From the NCBI GenBank assembly GCA_022842905.1, contig JALHOS010000008.1, forward strand, positions 1-47,919: DNA of 47,919 bases, in the 5' to 3' direction. The DNA is from Myxococcaceae bacterium (GTDB taxonomy: Bacteria > Myxococcota > Myxococcia > Myxococcales > Myxococcaceae). The translations under genes were made by a program, and so were the position numbers. The notes under the pieces were generated by a model. The model was not told the origin of the DNA. It did not search any database and saw only the letters and a list, made by a program, of their open reading frames with translations. Positions 5,728 through 43,179 of this stretch are shown one piece after another (position 1 is the stretch's first letter; each line of letters starts with the position of its first letter).

Positions 5728-7428
5728 TTAGAGGACCTCGTGAATGCGGGTGGGCGTGGAGCGACCGCGCAGCGTCTCTTCTTTGACGAACTTGATCTCC
5801 GCGCCGCTGTCCTTGGCGCGGTCGGCCAGCTCCCCGCTGACGATGATCTGGCCCGCCGACGCCTGCGACTCCAGGCGCGCGGCCATGTTCACCGTGTCGC
5901 CGATGACGGTGTACTCGAGCCGCTTGGGGCTGCCGATGTTCCCGGCGATGGCCTGGCCCACGTGCACGCCGACGGCGATCTGCACCGTCAGCCCGTACTT
6001 CTCGCGCCACTTGCGCTGGGCGGCCTCGACCCACTCGCGAATCTGCTGCGCGCACTCGAGCGCCCGGTCCACGTCGTGCGGGCTGGCCTCGGGCAGGCCC
6101 CACACCGCCATCACCGCGTCGCCGATGAACTTGTCCACCATGCCCTTGTGCCGGTGAATGACCTCCGTCTCGACGGTGAACAGCTCGTTGAGCAGCGCCA
6201 CCACCGTCTCCGGCGGCAGCGTCTCGGACAACTTGGTAAAGCCCACGACGTCGGCGAACAGCACCACCACCTCGCGCCGCGCGCCGCCCAGCGTCAGCGT
6301 GCCGGGGTTCTTGAGCGCCTGATCGACGACCTCCGGCGCCAGGTAGCGCGCGAGCGCGTTCTTCCGCTCGGCCTCCTCCAGCACCCGCTGCTGCGCCACC
6401 TTCAGCTGCGCCCACATGCCGTCGAAGCTGCGGGCGAGCTGGCCGATCTCGTCCTTGCGGGCGGTGACGGCGACGTCGACCTTGTCGAACGTGCCCGTCG
6501 CCATGCGCTGCGTTTCCTGCTCGAGCGTCTGCAGCGGCCGCGTCAGCTTCTTCGCGCCCCACAGCCCGACGAGGAGCGCGACCAGCACCGCGAAGCCCAC
6601 CGCCAGGCCGACCGCCCGCCGCGTCTGCGCCAGCGTCGCGTACGCCTGCTCCCGCGGCCAGTCGACGACGACGGCCCAGCCCAGCTCCGGCACCGTCGAG
6701 AAGCCGCCGAGCAGCTCCTTGCCCTGCGCGTCGACGAACTCCACCGACAGGCTGACGGCCTGGCGGAAGGGCAGGTTGTTGCCCAGCTTCTGGAGGAAGT
6801 ACGCGGCGTGGGTGTCTGGTCCGCCGGCGAGCACCTGGGTCCCTTTGAGGTCCGTCACGAAGACCGCCGAGCGGTTGGACAGCGGCGGACGGTCCCCGAG
6901 CGCGCCGAGCTGGGCGTTGAGGCCTTCGAGCGTCACCAGCGCCGCCAGCGTGCCCAGCCGCTCGCCCACCGGCACCGCCAGCCACAGGTACGGCGAGAGG
7001 CCCCGCTGCTCGTGCGAGAGGAGCGCGAGGCCCGGCTCTTCACGCAGCGCCACGGTGTCCGGAGCAGCCACCGACGCGTCGCCCTTCGTCTTGAGCGTCC
7101 ACCGGCGCGCGCCGTCCGCCCCGTAGAGGGCCAGCGCCTGCACCTGCGGCGACGTCGAGACCAACGCCTTGACGGCGGTGAGCCGGGCGTTGTCGTCACC
7201 CAAGTCCGGCGCCGAGATGGTGAGCGCGACGGCGTCGAGCTGCGTGCGCACCTGCTCGAGCTCGCGCTGCACCAGGTCCCGGCCGCGCTCCGCCGTCACC
7301 TGAAGCGAAGCGTTCGCGTCCCGTGTGAGCGCCGCCTTGTTCTGGTCGACGACGGCCAGCCCCAGCAGCACGAGCGGCGTGACGGCGGTGACCAACAACA
7401 GGGCAACTTGCCGCGTGAAGAGGTTCAC
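5728..7428 (-). CDS. Class III adenylate/guanylate cyclase with periplasmic sensor and HAMP
   Basis: 566 aa from a GTG whose bases overlap the upstream stop (GTGA, 4-bp overlap), which fixes the start. There is an N-terminal membrane helix (about 7-27), a periplasmic Cache-like sensor of about 240 residues, and a second membrane helix at about 272-293 (AVGLAVGFAVLVALLVGLWG). A HAMP segment with RKDEIGQLARSFDGM follows, then a catalytic domain from about 385. Catalytic features are visible: both metal-binding Asp residues (LFADVVGFTKLSE and DKFIGDAVMAVWG), the purine-binding Lys in DKF, and the Asn/Arg of YTVIGDTVNMAARLES. So it should make cyclic nucleotide, cAMP by family norm, in response to a periplasmic signal. 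It sits between two OmpA-domain proteins in one operon. Confidence 0.9.
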   Translation of the reverse strand: MNLFTRQVALLLVTAVTPLVLLGLAVVDQNKAALTRDANASLQVTAERGRDLVQRELEQVRTQLDAVALTISAPDLGDDNARLTAVKALVSTSPQVQALALYGADGARRWTLKTKGDASVAAPDTVALREEPGLALLSHEQRGLSPYLWLAVPVGERLGTLAALVTLEGLNAQLGALGDRPPLSNRSAVFVTDLKGTQVLAGGPDTHAAYFLQKLGNNLPFRQAVSLSVEFVDAQGKELLGGFSTVPELGWAVVVDWPREQAYATLAQTRRAVGLAVGFAVLVALLVGLWGAKKLTRPLQTLEQETQRMATGTFDKVDVAVTARKDEIGQLARSFDGMWAQLKVAQQRVLEEAERKNALARYLAPEVVDQALKNPGTLTLGGARREVVVLFADVVGFTKLSETLPPETVVALLNELFTVETEVIHRHKGMVDKFIGDAVMAVWGLPEASPHDVDRALECAQQIREWVEAAQRKWREKYGLTVQIAVGVHVGQAIAGNIGSPKRLEYTVIGDTVNMAARLESQASAGQIIVSGELADRAKDSGAEIKFVKEETLRGRSTPTRIHEVL

Positions 7429-8843
7429 TTCTTGCCGCCGCCTTCCCGCTTGAGAATGAAGAGCTGCACCCGGCGGTTCTTCGCGCGGCTGGCCTCGTCC
7501 ACTTCGTGCACCAGCGGCTGGTCCGGCCCGAAGCCCACCGTGTCGAGGCGCCCGGCGGCGATGCCGTGCTCGACGAGCCAGGCCTTCACCGCGTCGGCGC
7601 GCGCCAGCGACAGCGTGCGGTTGGCGGCGGCGTCGCCCACGTCGTCGGTGTGGCCTTGGATTTCGACCTTGAGCAGTTCGGGCTGGCTGGCGAGCACCAG
7701 GCGCACGCTCTCGAGCGTCTTGAGGGACGCGGGGGTGAAGCTCGTCTGGCCGCTGACGAACTGGAGCGGGCTGAGCACCTTCACCTCGTCGCCGTCCACC
7801 ACCACCGGAGCGGGGCAGCCCTGAATTTTCCCCGCGAGCGACGGGCAGGCGTCGGCTTCGTCGGCGATGCCGTCCTTGTCGTTGTCCGGCTCCGGGCAGC
7901 CGTCGGCGTCTTCGAAGCCGTCGTCGTCCTCGGCCACCTTGGGGCACTTGTCCTTCGCGTCGGCGACGCCGTCCTGGTCGTTGTCCAGGTCCGGGCAGCC
8001 GTCCTTGTCGTCGAAGCCGTCGCGGTCCTCGGCGGCGTCGGGGCAGAGGTCGACGTCGTCCTGAACGCCGTCGCGGTCGTTGTCGACTTCGGGGCAGCCG
8101 TCGCCGTCCTCTTGACCGTCGAGGTCCTCGGCCACGGCGGGGCACCGGTCCTTGCCGTCGGGCACGCCGTCTCTGTCCGAATCCGGCGGCGGAGGAGGTG
8201 GCGGCTTGGCGCGCAGCTTCACCTTGGGCGTGGGCGGCGGCGCGAGGCTGGGACTCGGCGTCGGAGTCGGGGTCGGCTCGGCTTTGGCGAGCGGCTGGTC
8301 TCCCGTCGGCTCCGTCACGTCGAAGCGCAGGCCCAGGCCGGCGACGAAGAAGCGCCCGTCGCCTTCGCCCAGGCTGAACTGCTCCGGCGCCGTCTGCAGC
8401 ACGTGCACGTAGCGAAGGAAGGGCCCCAGCCAGAGGCGGCCCAACTTGAATTCACCTTGCACGTCCAGCGCGAAGCTCGGCCGCGCGACCGTCTGGAGCC
8501 CGGTGAAGCCCGCGACGGCGTGGAAGGCGAGCGACAGGTCGAAGCCGCTGAACACCAGCGGGTGGCCGCGCACGCCGACGCCGGGCGCGAAGAGGCTGCC
8601 GAAGCCTTCTTCTCCTTTGAGCGACACCCACAGGCCGCTGAGGTCGACGTCGAGGCCGACGTGGCGGTGAAAGCGCCACTCGTAGCCCGCGCTCACCGCG
8701 GCGCCCGCGCCGAAGCGCTCGTCCGCCGGCGAGCCCACGGGCAGGGCGAGCCCCGCGCGTCCACGCGCCAGGTGGTGGCTGTACGGCTCGGCGGCGCGCA
8801 CCGGCAGGCTCGCCAGCGCGGCACAGCAGAGGAGTAGACGCAT
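7425..8843 (-). CDS. OmpA-family protein with thrombospondin type 3 repeats
   Basis: 472 aa. A signal peptide (MRLLLCCAALASLPVRAA) is followed by an eight-strand-like beta domain (about 20-180), a Pro/Thr linker, and a block of Asp-rich TSP3 calcium-binding repeats (about 220-345; DSDRDGVPDGKDRCP and variants). A C-terminal OmpA peptidoglycan-binding domain has VEIQGHTDDVGD, RADAVKAWLVEHGI and RAKNRRVQLFIL. This is the known OprF-like layout, with the barrel in the outer membrane and the OmpA domain on peptidoglycan. First gene of the operon with the cyclase and the OmpA/FecR protein. The stop overlaps the cyclase GTG start, so translational coupling is expected. Confidence 0.9.
   Translation of the reverse strand: MRLLLCCAALASLPVRAAEPYSHHLARGRAGLALPVGSPADERFGAGAAVSAGYEWRFHRHVGLDVDLSGLWVSLKGEEGFGSLFAPGVGVRGHPLVFSGFDLSLAFHAVAGFTGLQTVARPSFALDVQGEFKLGRLWLGPFLRYVHVLQTAPEQFSLGEGDGRFFVAGLGLRFDVTEPTGDQPLAKAEPTPTPTPSPSLAPPPTPKVKLRAKPPPPPPPDSDRDGVPDGKDRCPAVAEDLDGQEDGDGCPEVDNDRDGVQDDVDLCPDAAEDRDGFDDKDGCPDLDNDQDGVADAKDKCPKVAEDDDGFEDADGCPEPDNDKDGIADEADACPSLAGKIQGCPAPVVVDGDEVKVLSPLQFVSGQTSFTPASLKTLESVRLVLASQPELLKVEIQGHTDDVGDAAANRTLSLARADAVKAWLVEHGIAAGRLDTVGFGPDQPLVHEVDEASRAKNRRVQLFILKREGGGKK
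7813..8187 (-). repeat. TSP3 calcium-binding repeat block inside the OmpA gene
   Basis: Four to five tandem, imperfect coding repeats of about 72 bp (24 residues) with the pattern DxDxDGxxDxxDxCPxxxED. They explain the repetitive GTCGTCC/GTCCTCG sequence here. They are protein repeats, not a CRISPR array: the units abut each other without unique spacers. Confidence 0.8.
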
Positions 8844-8937: not shown

Positions 8938-9861
8938 TCACGGTTGGGTCAACACGGCGCGTCGGTGCTGCTCCCGGAGAAAAGCGAGCTTGTCCGTCGC
9001 CGCGATCCAGCGCTCGATGTCCGCTCGATCGAACCGCAGGACGACGGGCTGCTCGGTGGCGTGTTTGCTCAGCTCGAGGGCAAAGGCGTCCGTGAAGCCT
9101 TCGAGCGAAAAGTAGAAGCCGACGGTGGCGCGCCGGTGCTTCGTCACGAGCTTGCAGACGAAGTCGCGCGCTTCAGGCGAACCCGCCTTCTTCGACCAGT
9201 TCTTGCACTCGCCCAGCAGGTACTGGCCTTCCTTCTTCCAGAGAGGGTCCTCGCTGCGGTTGCAAACGACGACGTCGAGTTCCTCCGTGTCCGTACGGAG
9301 GTTCGTGGTGACTTCGGCAAAGCCGGGGGTCGCCGTGAACAGGAGCTTCATCACCCGCTCGAGGAGCGCGCCTTTTCGGAAGCGGTCCGACGTTGAGGTC
9401 GCTTCGCGCCAGGTCGCCTGCAGCTCCTGACTCAGCGCTGCGTCGTCGCGCAGCGAGTTGCGGCGCCGTTCGAAGGCGACCTCAGCGGCGTTGCGCACCT
9501 TTGCCCGCAGGAGCGCCTCGAAGGCGCCATTCTTCACGAGGTAGTCGTACACGCCGAGTCGAAACGCCCGCTCGATGGCGTCGGCTGACGCGTAGCCCGT
9601 GACGACGATGAGCTTCGCCAAAGGCGCCAACTCTTTCGCGACAGAAATGAGCTCGAGCCCGGAGTCCGAGCCACCGGGACCCTGGAGTTTCTGGTCCAGG
9701 AGGATGACGTCCAGCGCTGGCCCGGCGTCCTTGCAGGCCTGTCGGGCCTGCTCGGCGGTCGAAGCGACCTGCGCCACGTGCCCATCGGCCTCGAGCAGCT
9801 CTCGGTACATCGCCGTGAAGGCGGCGTCGTCGTCGACGATGAGCAGACGGGTCGAGCTCAT
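8938..9861 (-). CDS. Response regulator fused to PD-(D/E)xK (Mrr-like) nuclease domain
   Basis: 307 aa. Residues 1-120 are a complete receiver domain: acidic pocket VDDD (10-12), phospho-acceptor Asp56 in VILLDQKL, the Thr of IVVTGYAS, and the Lys of YDYLVKNG. A coiled linker (about 120-160) leads to a restriction-endonuclease-like domain at about 160-285. This has GALLERVMKLLF (possible first Glu), TEELDVVV (metal-binding Asp), and LLGECKNWSKKA (the ExK motif), followed by an ATVGFYFSLEGFT strand-turn, as in Mrr/PDDEXK families. Catalytic residues look intact. It is the last gene of its operon and overlaps the histidine kinase by 4 bp (ATGA), so it is the obvious cognate partner. No DNA-binding HTH is present. 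Inference: phosphorylation controls a nuclease rather than transcription. Confidence 0.85.
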   Translation of the reverse strand: MSSTRLLIVDDDAAFTAMYRELLEADGHVAQVASTAEQARQACKDAGPALDVILLDQKLQGPGGSDSGLELISVAKELAPLAKLIVVTGYASADAIERAFRLGVYDYLVKNGAFEALLRAKVRNAAEVAFERRRNSLRDDAALSQELQATWREATSTSDRFRKGALLERVMKLLFTATPGFAEVTTNLRTDTEELDVVVCNRSEDPLWKKEGQYLLGECKNWSKKAGSPEARDFVCKLVTKHRRATVGFYFSLEGFTDAFALELSKHATEQPVVLRFDRADIERWIAATDKLAFLREQHRRAVLTQP

Positions 9862-11282
9862 GGTGCCTCGGCCGGTAGAGTTAGCACGAACCGAGCTCCT
9901 CCGAGGTCGCTCGCCTCACACCGCACCGTGCCGTGGTGTTCGGCGAGCACTCTTCGCACGAAGGCCAAGCCGAACCCCGTGCCGCCCGGCGTTGTCGTGA
10001 AGCCCTCCTCGAAAATGGCCGCACGCAGCGGCACCGGCACGCCTGGCCCGTCGTCGTCGATCTCGAGCGCGGTCGCGTCCGGGGTTCGACGGGCCTTCAC
10101 CCGGACGTGCTGCGCCTTCGCCTGAAATGCGTTGCGGAGCACGTTGACCAACGCTCGAGTCATCAACTCCGGCGCGACTGCCAGCGTCACCTCGCCCTCG
10201 TCGACCTCGACCTCGACAGTGTCGGGGAACGCGCGCAGCGCGCGCTGGAGGAGTGCTGCCACGGAGATCCGCATCCGGCGCTCCGCCGTCAGCTCCGCCG
10301 TGTGCACGAGCTCGTCCACGAAGTGCAGCGTCCGGAGCACGCCTTCGTGGGCGGCCTCGAGCCGGTCCAGGCCGTCTGCAGGCCGCTGCTTGATGAGCTG
10401 GCTCAAGTTGAAGCGCACCGGCCCGAGCGCGTTGCGCACCTCGTGGGTGACCAGCTTGACGTAGTCGCGCGTCGCGAGCTTGGCGTCGAACAGGACGCTG
10501 GGGACCGACGAAGCTCGGAGGTCTTCCAGCGCAGCGCGGACGGCGGCGCGCCAGGGGTTGGCTTCGGTCAGCGACCGGACCATGGAGCGGTAGGCGGGGG
10601 CCACCCGAAGGCCAGAAGGGAAGTGCGCACCGTCGTTCCACGACGCCTCGATGACGCCCCAAGCGAGCAGGCGCGCCAGCGCTGCGTCCGACACCGACAA
10701 CGCGAAGTCCACGTCGTCGAGGTGTTCTTGGTAACTGACCGCAGCGTCTTCGAGCTGCTCGAACTCCTGCGGAGCGACTCGCCACACGGAGCCGTGGAGC
10801 CCGTTCGCCAGCTCGGTCTCGATGGTCAGCACCCAGCGGATGGCGTCGAGTGGCGGCAGATTCAGAAGGGGCCGCCCGAGCGCGGTGAGCGCAGTCGCGC
10901 CACGTTGGATCAACAGGTTCTCCTGCGCGTAGCTGAGCGTCTGCACTCCGCGCTCGCGGCACAGGTCGAGCACTCGTCTTGCCTCGAGGCGCTCGACGGA
11001 GTCACCGCTGGGGACGAAGGCCGACTCGAGGACCCTTCGGGCGAAGGTCTGGGTGCGGTGCCAGACTTGGTCGTCCGGAAGGCTCGCCAAGGTCTCGGCG
11101 AGGGAGTCGACTTCCCTGGCCCACTCGGCGTGGCCAAGCCTCCGCCGCCAGGGCGACCTGTCAGCGAGAAGGTCGACGAGGCACTCCCTCAAATCGGCGC
11201 GGTCCAGGTCCCACGACGAGCCCGTCTCGGTGCGCCCCGAGTCGACGCGGCGAAGGAACGCCTGCAGGTGCTCGATGTGCAC
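9858..11282 (-). CDS. Soluble histidine kinase with unrecognised N-terminal domain
   Basis: 474 aa from a GTG 14 nt after the thioesterase stop; upstream GTG codons overlapping that gene are possible. Residues 1 to about 260 form a mostly helical domain I do not recognise. No transmembrane segment or signal peptide is visible, so the kinase is cytosolic. The HisKA motif has phospho-acceptor His280 in LVTHEVRNALGPVRF. The ATPase domain has an N-box (ALVNVLRNAFQAKA), the G1 box (DDDGPGVP) and the G2 box (GGTGFGLAFVRRVL). The stop overlaps the start of the response regulator-nuclease by 4 bp. Likely it senses an intracellular cue and phosphorylates that regulator. Confidence 0.85.
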   Translation of the reverse strand: MHIEHLQAFLRRVDSGRTETGSSWDLDRADLRECLVDLLADRSPWRRRLGHAEWAREVDSLAETLASLPDDQVWHRTQTFARRVLESAFVPSGDSVERLEARRVLDLCRERGVQTLSYAQENLLIQRGATALTALGRPLLNLPPLDAIRWVLTIETELANGLHGSVWRVAPQEFEQLEDAAVSYQEHLDDVDFALSVSDAALARLLAWGVIEASWNDGAHFPSGLRVAPAYRSMVRSLTEANPWRAAVRAALEDLRASSVPSVLFDAKLATRDYVKLVTHEVRNALGPVRFNLSQLIKQRPADGLDRLEAAHEGVLRTLHFVDELVHTAELTAERRMRISVAALLQRALRAFPDTVEVEVDEGEVTLAVAPELMTRALVNVLRNAFQAKAQHVRVKARRTPDATALEIDDDGPGVPVPLRAAIFEEGFTTTPGGTGFGLAFVRRVLAEHHGTVRCEASDLGGARFVLTLPAEAP

Positions 11283-12667: not shown

Positions 12668-12904
12668 GGCGGCGTTCTACCTCTGGACGGTTCGACGACA
12701 GCAGGAAACCACCTTTGCATTCACTGTCCGCAACTCAGCCGCGGCGTAGTTCCAGTGAAGACACTGGTGCACACCCAGCGGCTGTAAACGTGAGTTCCAA
12801 GAAAACGAGCCAGAGCGTTCTATGTTGTTGAAATGTGGAGTATTTCTACCGGTCCTCGCGGGTGGATCGCTTTTCGCTACAGCCTCCGACAGCTCGGAGG
12901 GTTC
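12668..12904. promoter_or_regulatory. Divergent intergenic region with promoters for HAD operon and deiminase 1
   Basis: 237 bp, noticeably more AT-rich than the flanking genes, especially 12780-12850. A Shine-Dalgarno GGAGG at 12896-12900 lies just upstream of the deiminase ATG (12905) and chooses that start over an in-frame ATG at 12833. A short inverted repeat CCAGT/ACTGG lies around 12752-12767. No consensus -35/-10 pair with normal spacing was found. Confidence 0.45.
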
Positions 12905-15055
12905 ATGCGAAAAACGTGGCTTGCAGGACTGACGGTGTTGGCGCTGGTCGGGTGTGGCGCCGAGACGCAGCTGTCCATCTCGGACGACACGGCGGACGAG
13001 TCGAACGCGGCCGGAGCGCTGACGGGGCGGGTGCCGGTCGGCTCCACGCTGCAAGTCATCTCCAATGCGTCGCTGCGGCGCGGGCCCACGTCCTCGTCGG
13101 CGCGAGTGGCGTCGCTGCCCATCGGCACGCGGCTGACGACGACCGCGGAGCTGCCCCAGGGCAACAACTACTACGCCGTGACGGTGCAGGGGCTGGACGG
13201 CTTCGTGTTCGGCGGCAACGTGCGGCTGGTCGCGGTGGCTGACGCCGGGGCGCCGACGCCTCGGGACGCGGGTACCCCGGTCGTCGAGGACGCCGGCACG
13301 CCGGACGTGGTGGATGCGGGGAGCGCGCCTGCGCCGACGTCGGTGGTGGTGGACCTCCGCGCGGACACCAACCGGAGCGGCGCGGTGGAGCTCGACGACG
13401 CCACCGAAGACGCCGACGAAGCGAGCTGGACGACGGCGCACGGCGCGGTCTTCTTCGCCAACATCGACGACGACTCGTCGCGCTGCCGCAACACGACCGC
13501 TTCCGACGTGGACCTGCCCAAGTGCCACGACGCGCAGGACGACGTCGTCAACGGCAGCGACGACATCCTCGACCTGGCGCCCATGAAGATCGCGCCCTGG
13601 GCGCAGGCGCCGGAAGGCACCACCACCAGCGTCGCCTTCGAGCCGGCCTCGCGGGTGCGCGTCTTCAAGCTGAACCAGGGCCGCTATGAGCTGGTGACCA
13701 GCGGCGCGAGCCTGTCCGTCGCCGAGCTGCGCGCCGGTGTGTCTCTCTTCCTCGAGGGCAAGGACATCGTCCGTGACAGCGCGGTGTGGAGCGGCGTGGC
13801 CGACGTGACGCTGCGGGTGACGGTGCCGTCGTCGGCGGGCGCGCTCGCGGGCACGTACACCGACGTGGTGCGGCTGAAGATTGCCCCGGTGATGACGTTC
13901 CACCACGTGTCCCCGGTGACGACGGCGTTCGTGAGCAACACCGGCGGCGCCGATTCCACCGCCTTCATCAGCGGGCTGCGCGCGGCCACCAACGCGTCCG
14001 GCCTGTCCGGCCGGCTGGTCGAGCTGCCCACGCAGGACCAGTGGACGCAGGACTTCTTCGAGACGGCGTACATGTCGAAGCCCGGCCCGAACGGCGCGCA
14101 GCACACCATGCTCGTCGTCTACCGCTCGGCCAACCTCGAGAGCCGCTCGACGACGTCGCCGCTGCGCGAGGCCGGTCGGCTCGTGTTCACGCGCCTGCGC
14201 GGCAAGGACGTGGCCGGCGTGCAGCAGTTCGACTTCAACGCCCAGGCTGACAGCCAGTCGCTCAACTCCTTCGGCAACCTCGAGACGGTGCCGCCGTACA
14301 CGTTCAACGGCCGCAGCTTCCCGTTCGGGCGTGTGCTGCGCGGCTCGATTCCGTCCTTCGCGCCGGACCGCAGCTTCACGAAGATGATGGACTCCCAGCG
14401 CGCGCAGCCCGTCATCGAGGTGGACACGCAGTGGCTGGCCGTGGGCCACGTCGACGAGACGCTGTCCTTCATGAAGGTGAACACGCCGCGCGGCTGGGTG
14501 GTGCTCGCGAACGACGCCCGGCTGGCCAGGCAGATGCTGCAGCAGGCCGTGCAGCAGGGCTTCGGCAGCACGCGCATGTTCATTGGCAAGAGCTGGCTCA
14601 ACGACTTCGGCACCGGCGAGGTGTCGGCGACGAAGAGCATCAGCCAGGTGCTCGCGGACACCGACGTCATGACGCACAGCAACGAGGCGGCGGTGAAGGT
14701 CGACGAGCAGCTCGACATCCTCAAGGCGCAGACCGGCATCACCGACGCGGAAATCATCCCCGTGCCGTTCCTCCACATGAGCACGTCGGGCGTGTCCGTC
14801 GCCTACAACCCGGGCACGGTGAACATGCTCAACCTCAACGCCAACAACCTGGTGGTGCCGGATCCGTTCGGCCCCATCATCAACGGCAAGGACATCTTCA
14901 AGGACCAGCTCGAGCGCGCGCTGGCGCCCTACCAGGTGCGGATCCACTGGGTGGACGACTGGGACCTGTACCACCGGCTCATGGGTGAAATTCACTGCGG
15001 CACGAATTCGGTGCGGCAGATTCCGTCGACGAAGTGGTGGGAGGTGCTGCCGTGA
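12905..15055 (+). CDS. Secreted protein-arginine deiminase, copy 1, vertebrate PAD type
   Basis: 716 aa. Lipoprotein signal MRKTWLAGLTVLALVGC, then an SH3b-like domain (about 40-115; SNASLRRGPTSSSARVASLP), then a PAD middle domain from about 155 with an Asp-rich calcium-site segment (VDLRADTNRSGAVELDD) and HGAVFFANIDDD. The C-terminal catalytic domain carries the PAD signatures in order: QWTQDFFE (Asp383), LNSFGNLETVPP, VGHVDETLSFM (His515, Asp517), PDPFGPIINGKDIF, and GEIHCGTNSV (Cys698). Cys lies 18 residues from the end, as in human PAD4, and the protein closes with KWWEVLP like the human KWWNMVP. Known reaction: calcium-dependent hydrolysis of peptidyl-arginine to citrulline plus ammonia. 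Its target, self or prey, is unknown. Overlaps the HEAT gene by 4 bp. Confidence 0.9.
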   Translation: MRKTWLAGLTVLALVGCGAETQLSISDDTADESNAAGALTGRVPVGSTLQVISNASLRRGPTSSSARVASLPIGTRLTTTAELPQGNNYYAVTVQGLDGFVFGGNVRLVAVADAGAPTPRDAGTPVVEDAGTPDVVDAGSAPAPTSVVVDLRADTNRSGAVELDDATEDADEASWTTAHGAVFFANIDDDSSRCRNTTASDVDLPKCHDAQDDVVNGSDDILDLAPMKIAPWAQAPEGTTTSVAFEPASRVRVFKLNQGRYELVTSGASLSVAELRAGVSLFLEGKDIVRDSAVWSGVADVTLRVTVPSSAGALAGTYTDVVRLKIAPVMTFHHVSPVTTAFVSNTGGADSTAFISGLRAATNASGLSGRLVELPTQDQWTQDFFETAYMSKPGPNGAQHTMLVVYRSANLESRSTTSPLREAGRLVFTRLRGKDVAGVQQFDFNAQADSQSLNSFGNLETVPPYTFNGRSFPFGRVLRGSIPSFAPDRSFTKMMDSQRAQPVIEVDTQWLAVGHVDETLSFMKVNTPRGWVVLANDARLARQMLQQAVQQGFGSTRMFIGKSWLNDFGTGEVSATKSISQVLADTDVMTHSNEAAVKVDEQLDILKAQTGITDAEIIPVPFLHMSTSGVSVAYNPGTVNMLNLNANNLVVPDPFGPIINGKDIFKDQLERALAPYQVRIHWVDDWDLYHRLMGEIHCGTNSVRQIPSTKWWEVLP

Positions 15056-42387: not shown

Positions 42388-43179
42388 TTGGAGCAGCTAA
42401 TTGAAGCCTACAAATCGCGCCGCCTGATTCTCTTTGTTGGCGCCGGCGTCTCCATGGGCCTTGGCCTGCCCTCGTGGAATCAGCTCATTGACCATATCGC
42501 CAGAGAACTCGGCTACGACCCAGATGTATATAGGACCTTGGGCACCAATCTGGCTCTTGCTGAGTACTATCGGATAAAAATGGGCCGCATAGGACCACTC
42601 CGAAGTTGGATGGACAGGGAATGGCATTCCGCCGAGATCGACATCTCGAAGTCGAGGACACACGCGACTATCGCAACAGCAGAGTTTGAGCTTATCTACA
42701 CGACAAATTACGACCGATGGATCGAGCGGGCGTTTGAGCATTATAGACGGCCGTATATGAAGATTGCCCGCGCCGCCGATATCGCAACGGCCCGGCACGG
42801 TGTGGCGCAAGTCGTCAAATTTCATGGCGATCTCGATGATGACGAGTCGATCGTCCTCGACGAGAGTAGCTACTTCGAGCGCCTTGGCTTCGAATCCCCT
42901 CTCGACATCAAGCTGCGTTCGGATGTGCTTGGTCGGTCGGTGTTGTTCATTGGATACGGACTTGCCGATGTAAACATTCGATGGATTTTCTATCGACTCG
43001 CGCACATGTGGCGAAGGGCCGACCGGACTCAACAGCCTAAATCGTATTACTTTTCGTCGACGCCGAACCCGGTGCTGGAGGCCACACTGGCTCAGTGGAA
43101 CATCCAGATGATCACATCTGGCGAAGCTGATCCGGGAGTTGCCCTGGCAGAATTCTTGGCGGGGCTCGTGACGAGTTGA
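42388..43179 (+). CDS. SIR2-like NADase-type effector
   Basis: 263 aa, TTG start. SIR2 fold: nucleotide-binding loop [16 protein letters not shown] (Gly18-Ser22), the [14 protein letters not shown] motif (Asn107, Asp109), the [15 protein letters not shown] motif with catalytic His146, and [17 protein letters not shown]. This matches the stand-alone SIR2 domains of bacterial defence proteins (ThsA and similar), whose Asn and His are needed for NAD+ cleavage. Not a deacetylase: no zinc-binding Cys quartet. It is separated by 1 nt from the HAM1-like gene, suggesting a sensor plus effector that depletes NAD+. Low GC like its partner. Confidence 0.9.

Follow-up and report, generated by a model that had tools for sequence, protein, structure and literature searches.

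We have identified a two-gene cassette at positions 8938-11282 (-) of the window, meaning the whole stretch of 47,919 nucleotides analysed here, in which a soluble histidine kinase is paired with a response regulator that carries a nuclease output. That the two genes form a unit of kinase and receiver-nuclease is near certain. We hypothesize, from its residues and its relatives, that the cassette is a phosphorylation-gated DNase, most likely anti-phage and possibly abortive, and regard this reading as probable.

The genes lie at 11282-9858 and 9861-8938 (minus strand) and share 4 bp (ATGA), in agreement with the overall span and the 4-bp overlap given in an earlier note on this DNA, and the GTG start of the kinase is supported by homologues that start at the identical position (Table 1). 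Because the pair is kept in 13 other Myxococcota loci, chance open reading frames are ruled out. The reading of the pair as a kinase with a receiver-nuclease, also made in the earlier note, is borne out by its Pfam domains, the AlphaFold2 fold and the conserved pairing.

Table 1. Features of the kinase and regulator genes, in window positions
Feature	Positions	Strand	Basis or remark
Cytosolic sensor histidine kinase	9858..11282	-	474 aa, GTG start
N-terminal sensor region, kinase residues 1-262	10497..11282	-	Without Pfam family; conserved motif around DAIRWLL..E......DxWRxS
Winged-helix-like part of sensor, residues about 190-258 (tentative)	10509..10715	-	Weak MarR/PadR matches; model
DHp helices	10287..10484	-	Weak HisKA; model
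Phospho-acceptor His280, HEVRN box (predicted)	10443..10445	-	Invariant in 14 kinases
HATPase domain with N384, D410xGxG and C-terminal glycine box	9867..10274	-	PF02518, E 1.2e-20; residues invariant
Response regulator-nuclease	8938..9861	-	307 aa; PF00072 + PF04471, residue conservation, AlphaFold2 model
Receiver domain, regulator residues 1-122	9496..9861	-	PF00072; D10, D11, D56, T88, K110 invariant
Phosphorylation site Asp56 (predicted)	9694..9696	-	Invariant residue
Helical linker between receiver and nuclease, residues 123-158	9388..9495	-	AlphaFold2 model
Mrr-type PD-(D/E)xK nuclease domain, residues 159-307	8941..9387	-	PF04471 above cut-off; modelled fold
Catalytic Glu168, helix 1 (predicted)	9358..9360	-	Invariant, 18 diverse domains
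Catalytic Asp196 (predicted)	9274..9276	-	Invariant, 18 diverse domains
Catalytic Glu218-Cys-Lys220 (predicted)	9202..9210	-	Invariant, 18 diverse domains

The regulator was matched by Pfam to Response_reg (PF00072) at residues 7-119 (E 2e-15) and to Mrr_cat (PF04471) at residues 167-282 (22.8 bits against a cut-off of 21). No HTH was found in it by Pfam; the output is a nuclease, with no transcription-factor domain. In its AlphaFold2 model (pLDDT 84.7), the receiver and a long linker helix are followed by an alpha/beta core that resembles restriction enzymes. Helix 1 holds E168, strand 2 holds D196, and E218/K220 fall at strand 3; in the model this is the standard PD-(D/E)xK layout. The earlier claim that the output is a PD-(D/E)xK domain and not an HTH is upheld by the Mrr_cat match, the absence of an HTH and the modelled fold. 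Searches of the nuclease against PDB profiles gave no informative match, the top ones being chance matches to CD38, and a structure search with the entire regulator as query was filled by receiver domains and thus uninformative on the nuclease.

An alignment of 14 receiver-nucleases showed D10, D11, D56, T88, K110, E168, D196, E218, C219 and K220 to be invariant in all 14, so that the phosphorylatable Asp and the ECK motif are intact as previously claimed. When 18 nuclease domains joined to widely differing partners are compared, the only fully invariant positions are L-E, D and E-C-K-N-W. Homologues with dead nuclease motifs, which the earlier note had named as grounds for abandoning its reading, were looked for and none was found in either set, E168, D196, E218 and K220 being invariant in the 14 as well as the 18. 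Response regulators usually act by binding, and an ordinary regulatory two-component pair whose C-terminal domain binds nucleic acid or protein without catalysis would fit that usual mode. We consider such a pair highly improbable, since the catalytic residues are almost the sole invariants of the 18 diverse domains and occupy the right secondary-structure elements in the model. Because nearly all that is invariant in these 18 domains is catalytic residues and their immediate neighbors, catalysis is strongly argued for, and the nuclease domain of the regulator is very likely active.

The kinase was matched by Pfam to HATPase_c (PF02518, E 1.2e-20) and weakly to HisKA. All 14 kinases share H280, E281, N384, D410 and the glycine boxes without change, and the canonical two-component residues are complete, comprising the His and the N and G boxes of the kinase and the acidic pocket, Asp, Thr and Lys of the receiver. 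No transmembrane segment was found in the kinase, whose highest 19-residue hydropathy is 1.53, in line with the earlier description of a kinase lacking a membrane segment.

A domain search of the roughly 260-residue N-terminus of the kinase, which had been proposed as a check, matched no Pfam family in residues 1-262 of the window kinase and gave a weak winged-helix resemblance. This resemblance consists of weak MarR/PadR matches in a PDB profile search at residues about 190-258 (best E 0.02), over a stretch modelled as helix-strand-strand-helix with a pLDDT of about 60-85; PDB profiles gave no informative match to the sensor. Other members of the family yielded scattered, chance-level Pfam matches in this region. 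The kinase model is poor, with an overall pLDDT of 63.8 and its minimum in the first 130 residues, and therefore no fold is claimed for the N-terminal part. With 12 candidates scored per genome, a profile of the sensor region found matches in at least 15 of the 195 Myxococcota genomes, all of them where the nuclease gene lies (14 intact pairs, including the window, and one decayed), and no match in plasmids or viral contigs.

The nuclease domain occurs in 17 of 195 Myxococcota genomes and the intact pair at 13 loci besides the window, so that about 14 of the 195 genomes (about 7-8%) carry the cassette. All phosphorelay residues (H280, N384 and DxGxG of the kinase; D10, D11, D56, T88 and K110 of the receiver) and the nuclease set are kept in the 13 homologous pairs. 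A scan of species genomes turned up further relatives, matching over their full length, in Sorangium, Paraliomyxa and soil MAGs. The full-length matches bear Myxococcota or deltaproteobacterial names, relatives elsewhere match the nuclease part only, and the queries used retrieved no copy of the pair from plasmids, phages or viral contigs.

This pairing bears on whether the regulator might instead be a type IV-like restriction enzyme related to Mrr and dependent on DNA modification, whose activity or expression the receiver and kinase would tune rather than raise the infection alarm. The output domain does exceed the curated Mrr_cat cut-off, as such an enzyme might; however, the nuclease has no separate DNA-recognition domain, its partners being only the receiver and linker, and among the Myxococcota genomes searched, intact copies come with a dedicated kinase. 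We therefore find a restriction enzyme of this kind rather improbable. An orphan regulator does occur in Paraliomyxa miuraensis (locus L050, 8935-9924 (+)), a receiver-nuclease 54% identical to the window regulator, in which one acidic-pocket Asp is replaced by Gly and near which no kinase was detected.

The kinase-regulator pair is a self-contained cassette. Of 16 Corallococcus-type genomes with a lipoprotein gene and a GNAT acetyltransferase gene as flanks, four carry the cassette between them and 12 have the flanks joined, with the two genes about 105 bp apart at the empty site. In Myxococcus-type genomes, a pseudouridine-synthase-type gene and an Ntn-hydrolase-like gene flank the cassette in two and are joined in five; all four flank names are readings of the sequence rather than database assignments. 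Two-gene insertions and deletions at two chromosomal loci thus indicate that exactly the kinase and the regulator come and go, and neither an integrase nor a third gene accompanies them at these sites. Remnants were found in two genomes, one with a fused, stop-containing pair (G062) and one with a truncated regulator and no kinase (G045). The empty-site comparison covers these two loci; the DUF4442 neighbor of the window copy lacks a close counterpart in the relatives.

The two ends of the cassette diverge at different rates. In close Corallococcus-type pairs, amino-acid identity is 67-79% for the sensor, 93-95% for the kinase core and 96-99% for the nuclease, making the sensor half the fastest-diverging part and the nuclease one of the slowest. 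The sensor half also has a higher dS and a lower GC3. As dN/dS stays below 1, positive selection is unsupported, and because fast sensor divergence accompanies the lower GC3 and higher dS, part of it may stem from relaxed codon usage and not from an arms race. Swapping of sensors between lineages by recombination, suggested by the raised dS, was considered and dropped because sensor identities rank the relatives as those of the regulator do and GC3 is lower in the sensor.

These patterns must be weighed against a role within myxobacterial biology itself. Myxobacteria are multicellular and have many two-component systems, and the window copy is surrounded by housekeeping genes outside any defence island, 14 bp behind a DUF4442 thioesterase gene and with no defence genes adjoining. 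Such a setting would suit a suicide or DNA-processing nuclease, gated by a phosphorelay and triggered by stress or development (programmed cell death, DNA damage or competence), that has no role against phage. A core developmental function should be retained, whereas the cassette is confined to the small fraction of genomes given above, close relatives have clean empty sites and the sensor is its fastest-changing part, all of which weaken this explanation and leave it unlikely.

A survey of homologous neighborhoods for defence islands, another check proposed at the outset, supported a defence setting at one copy and failed to do so at most others. In Pyxidicoccus fallax, Septu lies one gene from the regulator (PtuA E 2e-49, PtuB E 1e-46), and most homologous loci, like that of the window, are without any other defence gene. 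The Septu genes lie at 5809-8054 (+) of this locus (L041), and a related genome (L037) has no Septu there.

Relatives of the nuclease were found in other architectures. One is a fusion of HEPN_Toprim_N to the same nuclease subfamily (L044, 8590-9903 (+)). Another is a two-gene unit of a TIR-AAA-TPR protein (1100 aa) followed by an nSTAND1-Mrr nuclease (562 aa; L045, 4986-9973 (+)), which looks like a separate NLR-like defence system. The relatives with HEPN_Toprim_N or nSTAND1 fusions belong to the same bacterial family, and the HEPN_Toprim_N and nSTAND1/TIR-AAA-TPR architectures are typical of defence proteins. A defence role for the cassette is indirectly supported by its precise two-gene presence and absence, its patchy distribution, the Septu system beside one copy, the HEPN/Toprim-, STAND- and TIR-type relatives and the fast-diverging sensor half.

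Two further genes of the window were noted. A stand-alone SIR2_2-domain protein of 263 aa is encoded at 42388-43179 (+), about 31 kb from the cassette (Pfam E 2e-25; PADLOC ThsA E 8e-30). Its GC3 of 0.64 is unusually low for the genome, so the gene is likely a recent arrival, and it is a possible defence gene. At 12833-15055 (+), a 740-aa protein begins like a lipoprotein and contains an SH3_3-like stretch and a complete PAD domain (E 7e-91); protein-arginine deiminase is an enzyme family best known from animals.

Under the favored reading of a phosphorylation-gated anti-phage DNase, the N-terminal region of the kinase would sense an intracellular cue, probably one made or altered by the invader. 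The HATPase domain, whose residues are in place, would then drive autophosphorylation on His280, and the phosphate would pass to Asp56 of the operon partner. The activated receiver, probably dimerizing through its receiver and linker helices, may unite the Mrr-type nuclease domains and so license cleavage of DNA, the presumed substrate, at E168/D196/E218-x-K220. Infection would be halted when the invader's DNA is cut or, in an abortive response, the host's own.

The literature searched contained no published description of a two-gene kinase and receiver-nuclease arrangement; HATPase and REC domains do feature among the predicted systems illustrated in a recent machine-learning survey (PMC13092281). 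We propose tentatively, and with slightly less than even confidence, that the cassette is a minimal two-gene immune two-component system, in which a kinase whose sensor belongs to a new family detects infection directly and phosphorylates, and so licenses, a DNA nuclease with no second messengers, buffer protein or NTPase, and that this minimal arrangement is new to the literature and libraries searched. If true, a phosphorelay would be a simple, re-wireable DNase switch during infection, and immune sensing by a histidine kinase would become directly testable with two genes and a dedicated sensor domain. Strains with empty sites offer natural controls, and close relatives offer sensor halves that differ strongly over nucleases that barely differ. 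A nuclease that phosphorylation can switch would be of use as a tool as well.

Several known systems share parts of this design. The cassette nuclease has the PF04471 catalytic domain family and the E-D-ExK site in common with Mrr and type IV restriction endonucleases, but a receiver is attached to it and a dedicated kinase would control it, with no separate recognition domain seen. In Shedu, SduA is a DUF4263 PD-(D/E)xK nuclease behind varied N-terminal regulatory domains (PMC12137116). In the cassette, too, a PD-(D/E)xK nuclease follows a regulatory domain of an exchangeable kind, although its nuclease is Mrr_cat rather than DUF4263 and a separate histidine kinase is added. PADLOC profiles assigned no defence family to the kinase and only SduA to the regulator, where the profile (PDLC00405, positions 6-128) covers the receiver alone (residues 3-120). 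Shedu identity was accordingly rejected, Pfam giving Mrr_cat and no DUF4263; the match suggests that a receiver domain stands at the start of some proteins filed as SduA. Response regulators of the PorX type, with a PglZ output, control oligonucleotide signalling and virulence-factor secretion (PMC12839542). Their output, too, is a phosphodiesterase-type enzyme and not a transcription factor, but the effector domain is another one and PorX is not described as an excisable cassette.

Another parallel in layout is with Detocs, which comprises three genes, the DtcA kinase, the receiver-only buffer DtcB and the receiver-PNP DtcC, and whose best-known effector, the PNP, degrades ATP (PMC11728103, PMC11249213). 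In both, a single operon encodes a cytosolic kinase that has a sensing region of its own, together with a receiver to which an enzymatic effector is directly fused. Detocs variants with other effectors, including nucleases, were reportedly presented in the original 2023 Cell paper. The absence of DtcB claimed in the earlier note holds for the window locus and its homologues: no second receiver was found on the window contig or in 13 homologous neighborhoods of 17-19.5 kb (tblastn with the regulator, E<=1e-3). Since the kinase HATPase matches nothing in PADLOC and a DtcA model is probably absent from it, PADLOC cannot decide Detocs membership. At the ssb-yjcB island site of E. coli, Avs4 islands and one resistance island were found, and no Detocs. 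Compared with Detocs as described, the cassette has two genes instead of three, lacks a receiver-only DtcB and carries an Mrr-type nuclease in place of the PNP, and for these reasons it is not filed as Detocs. By analogy, it would work like Detocs without being a member of that family on the features tested.
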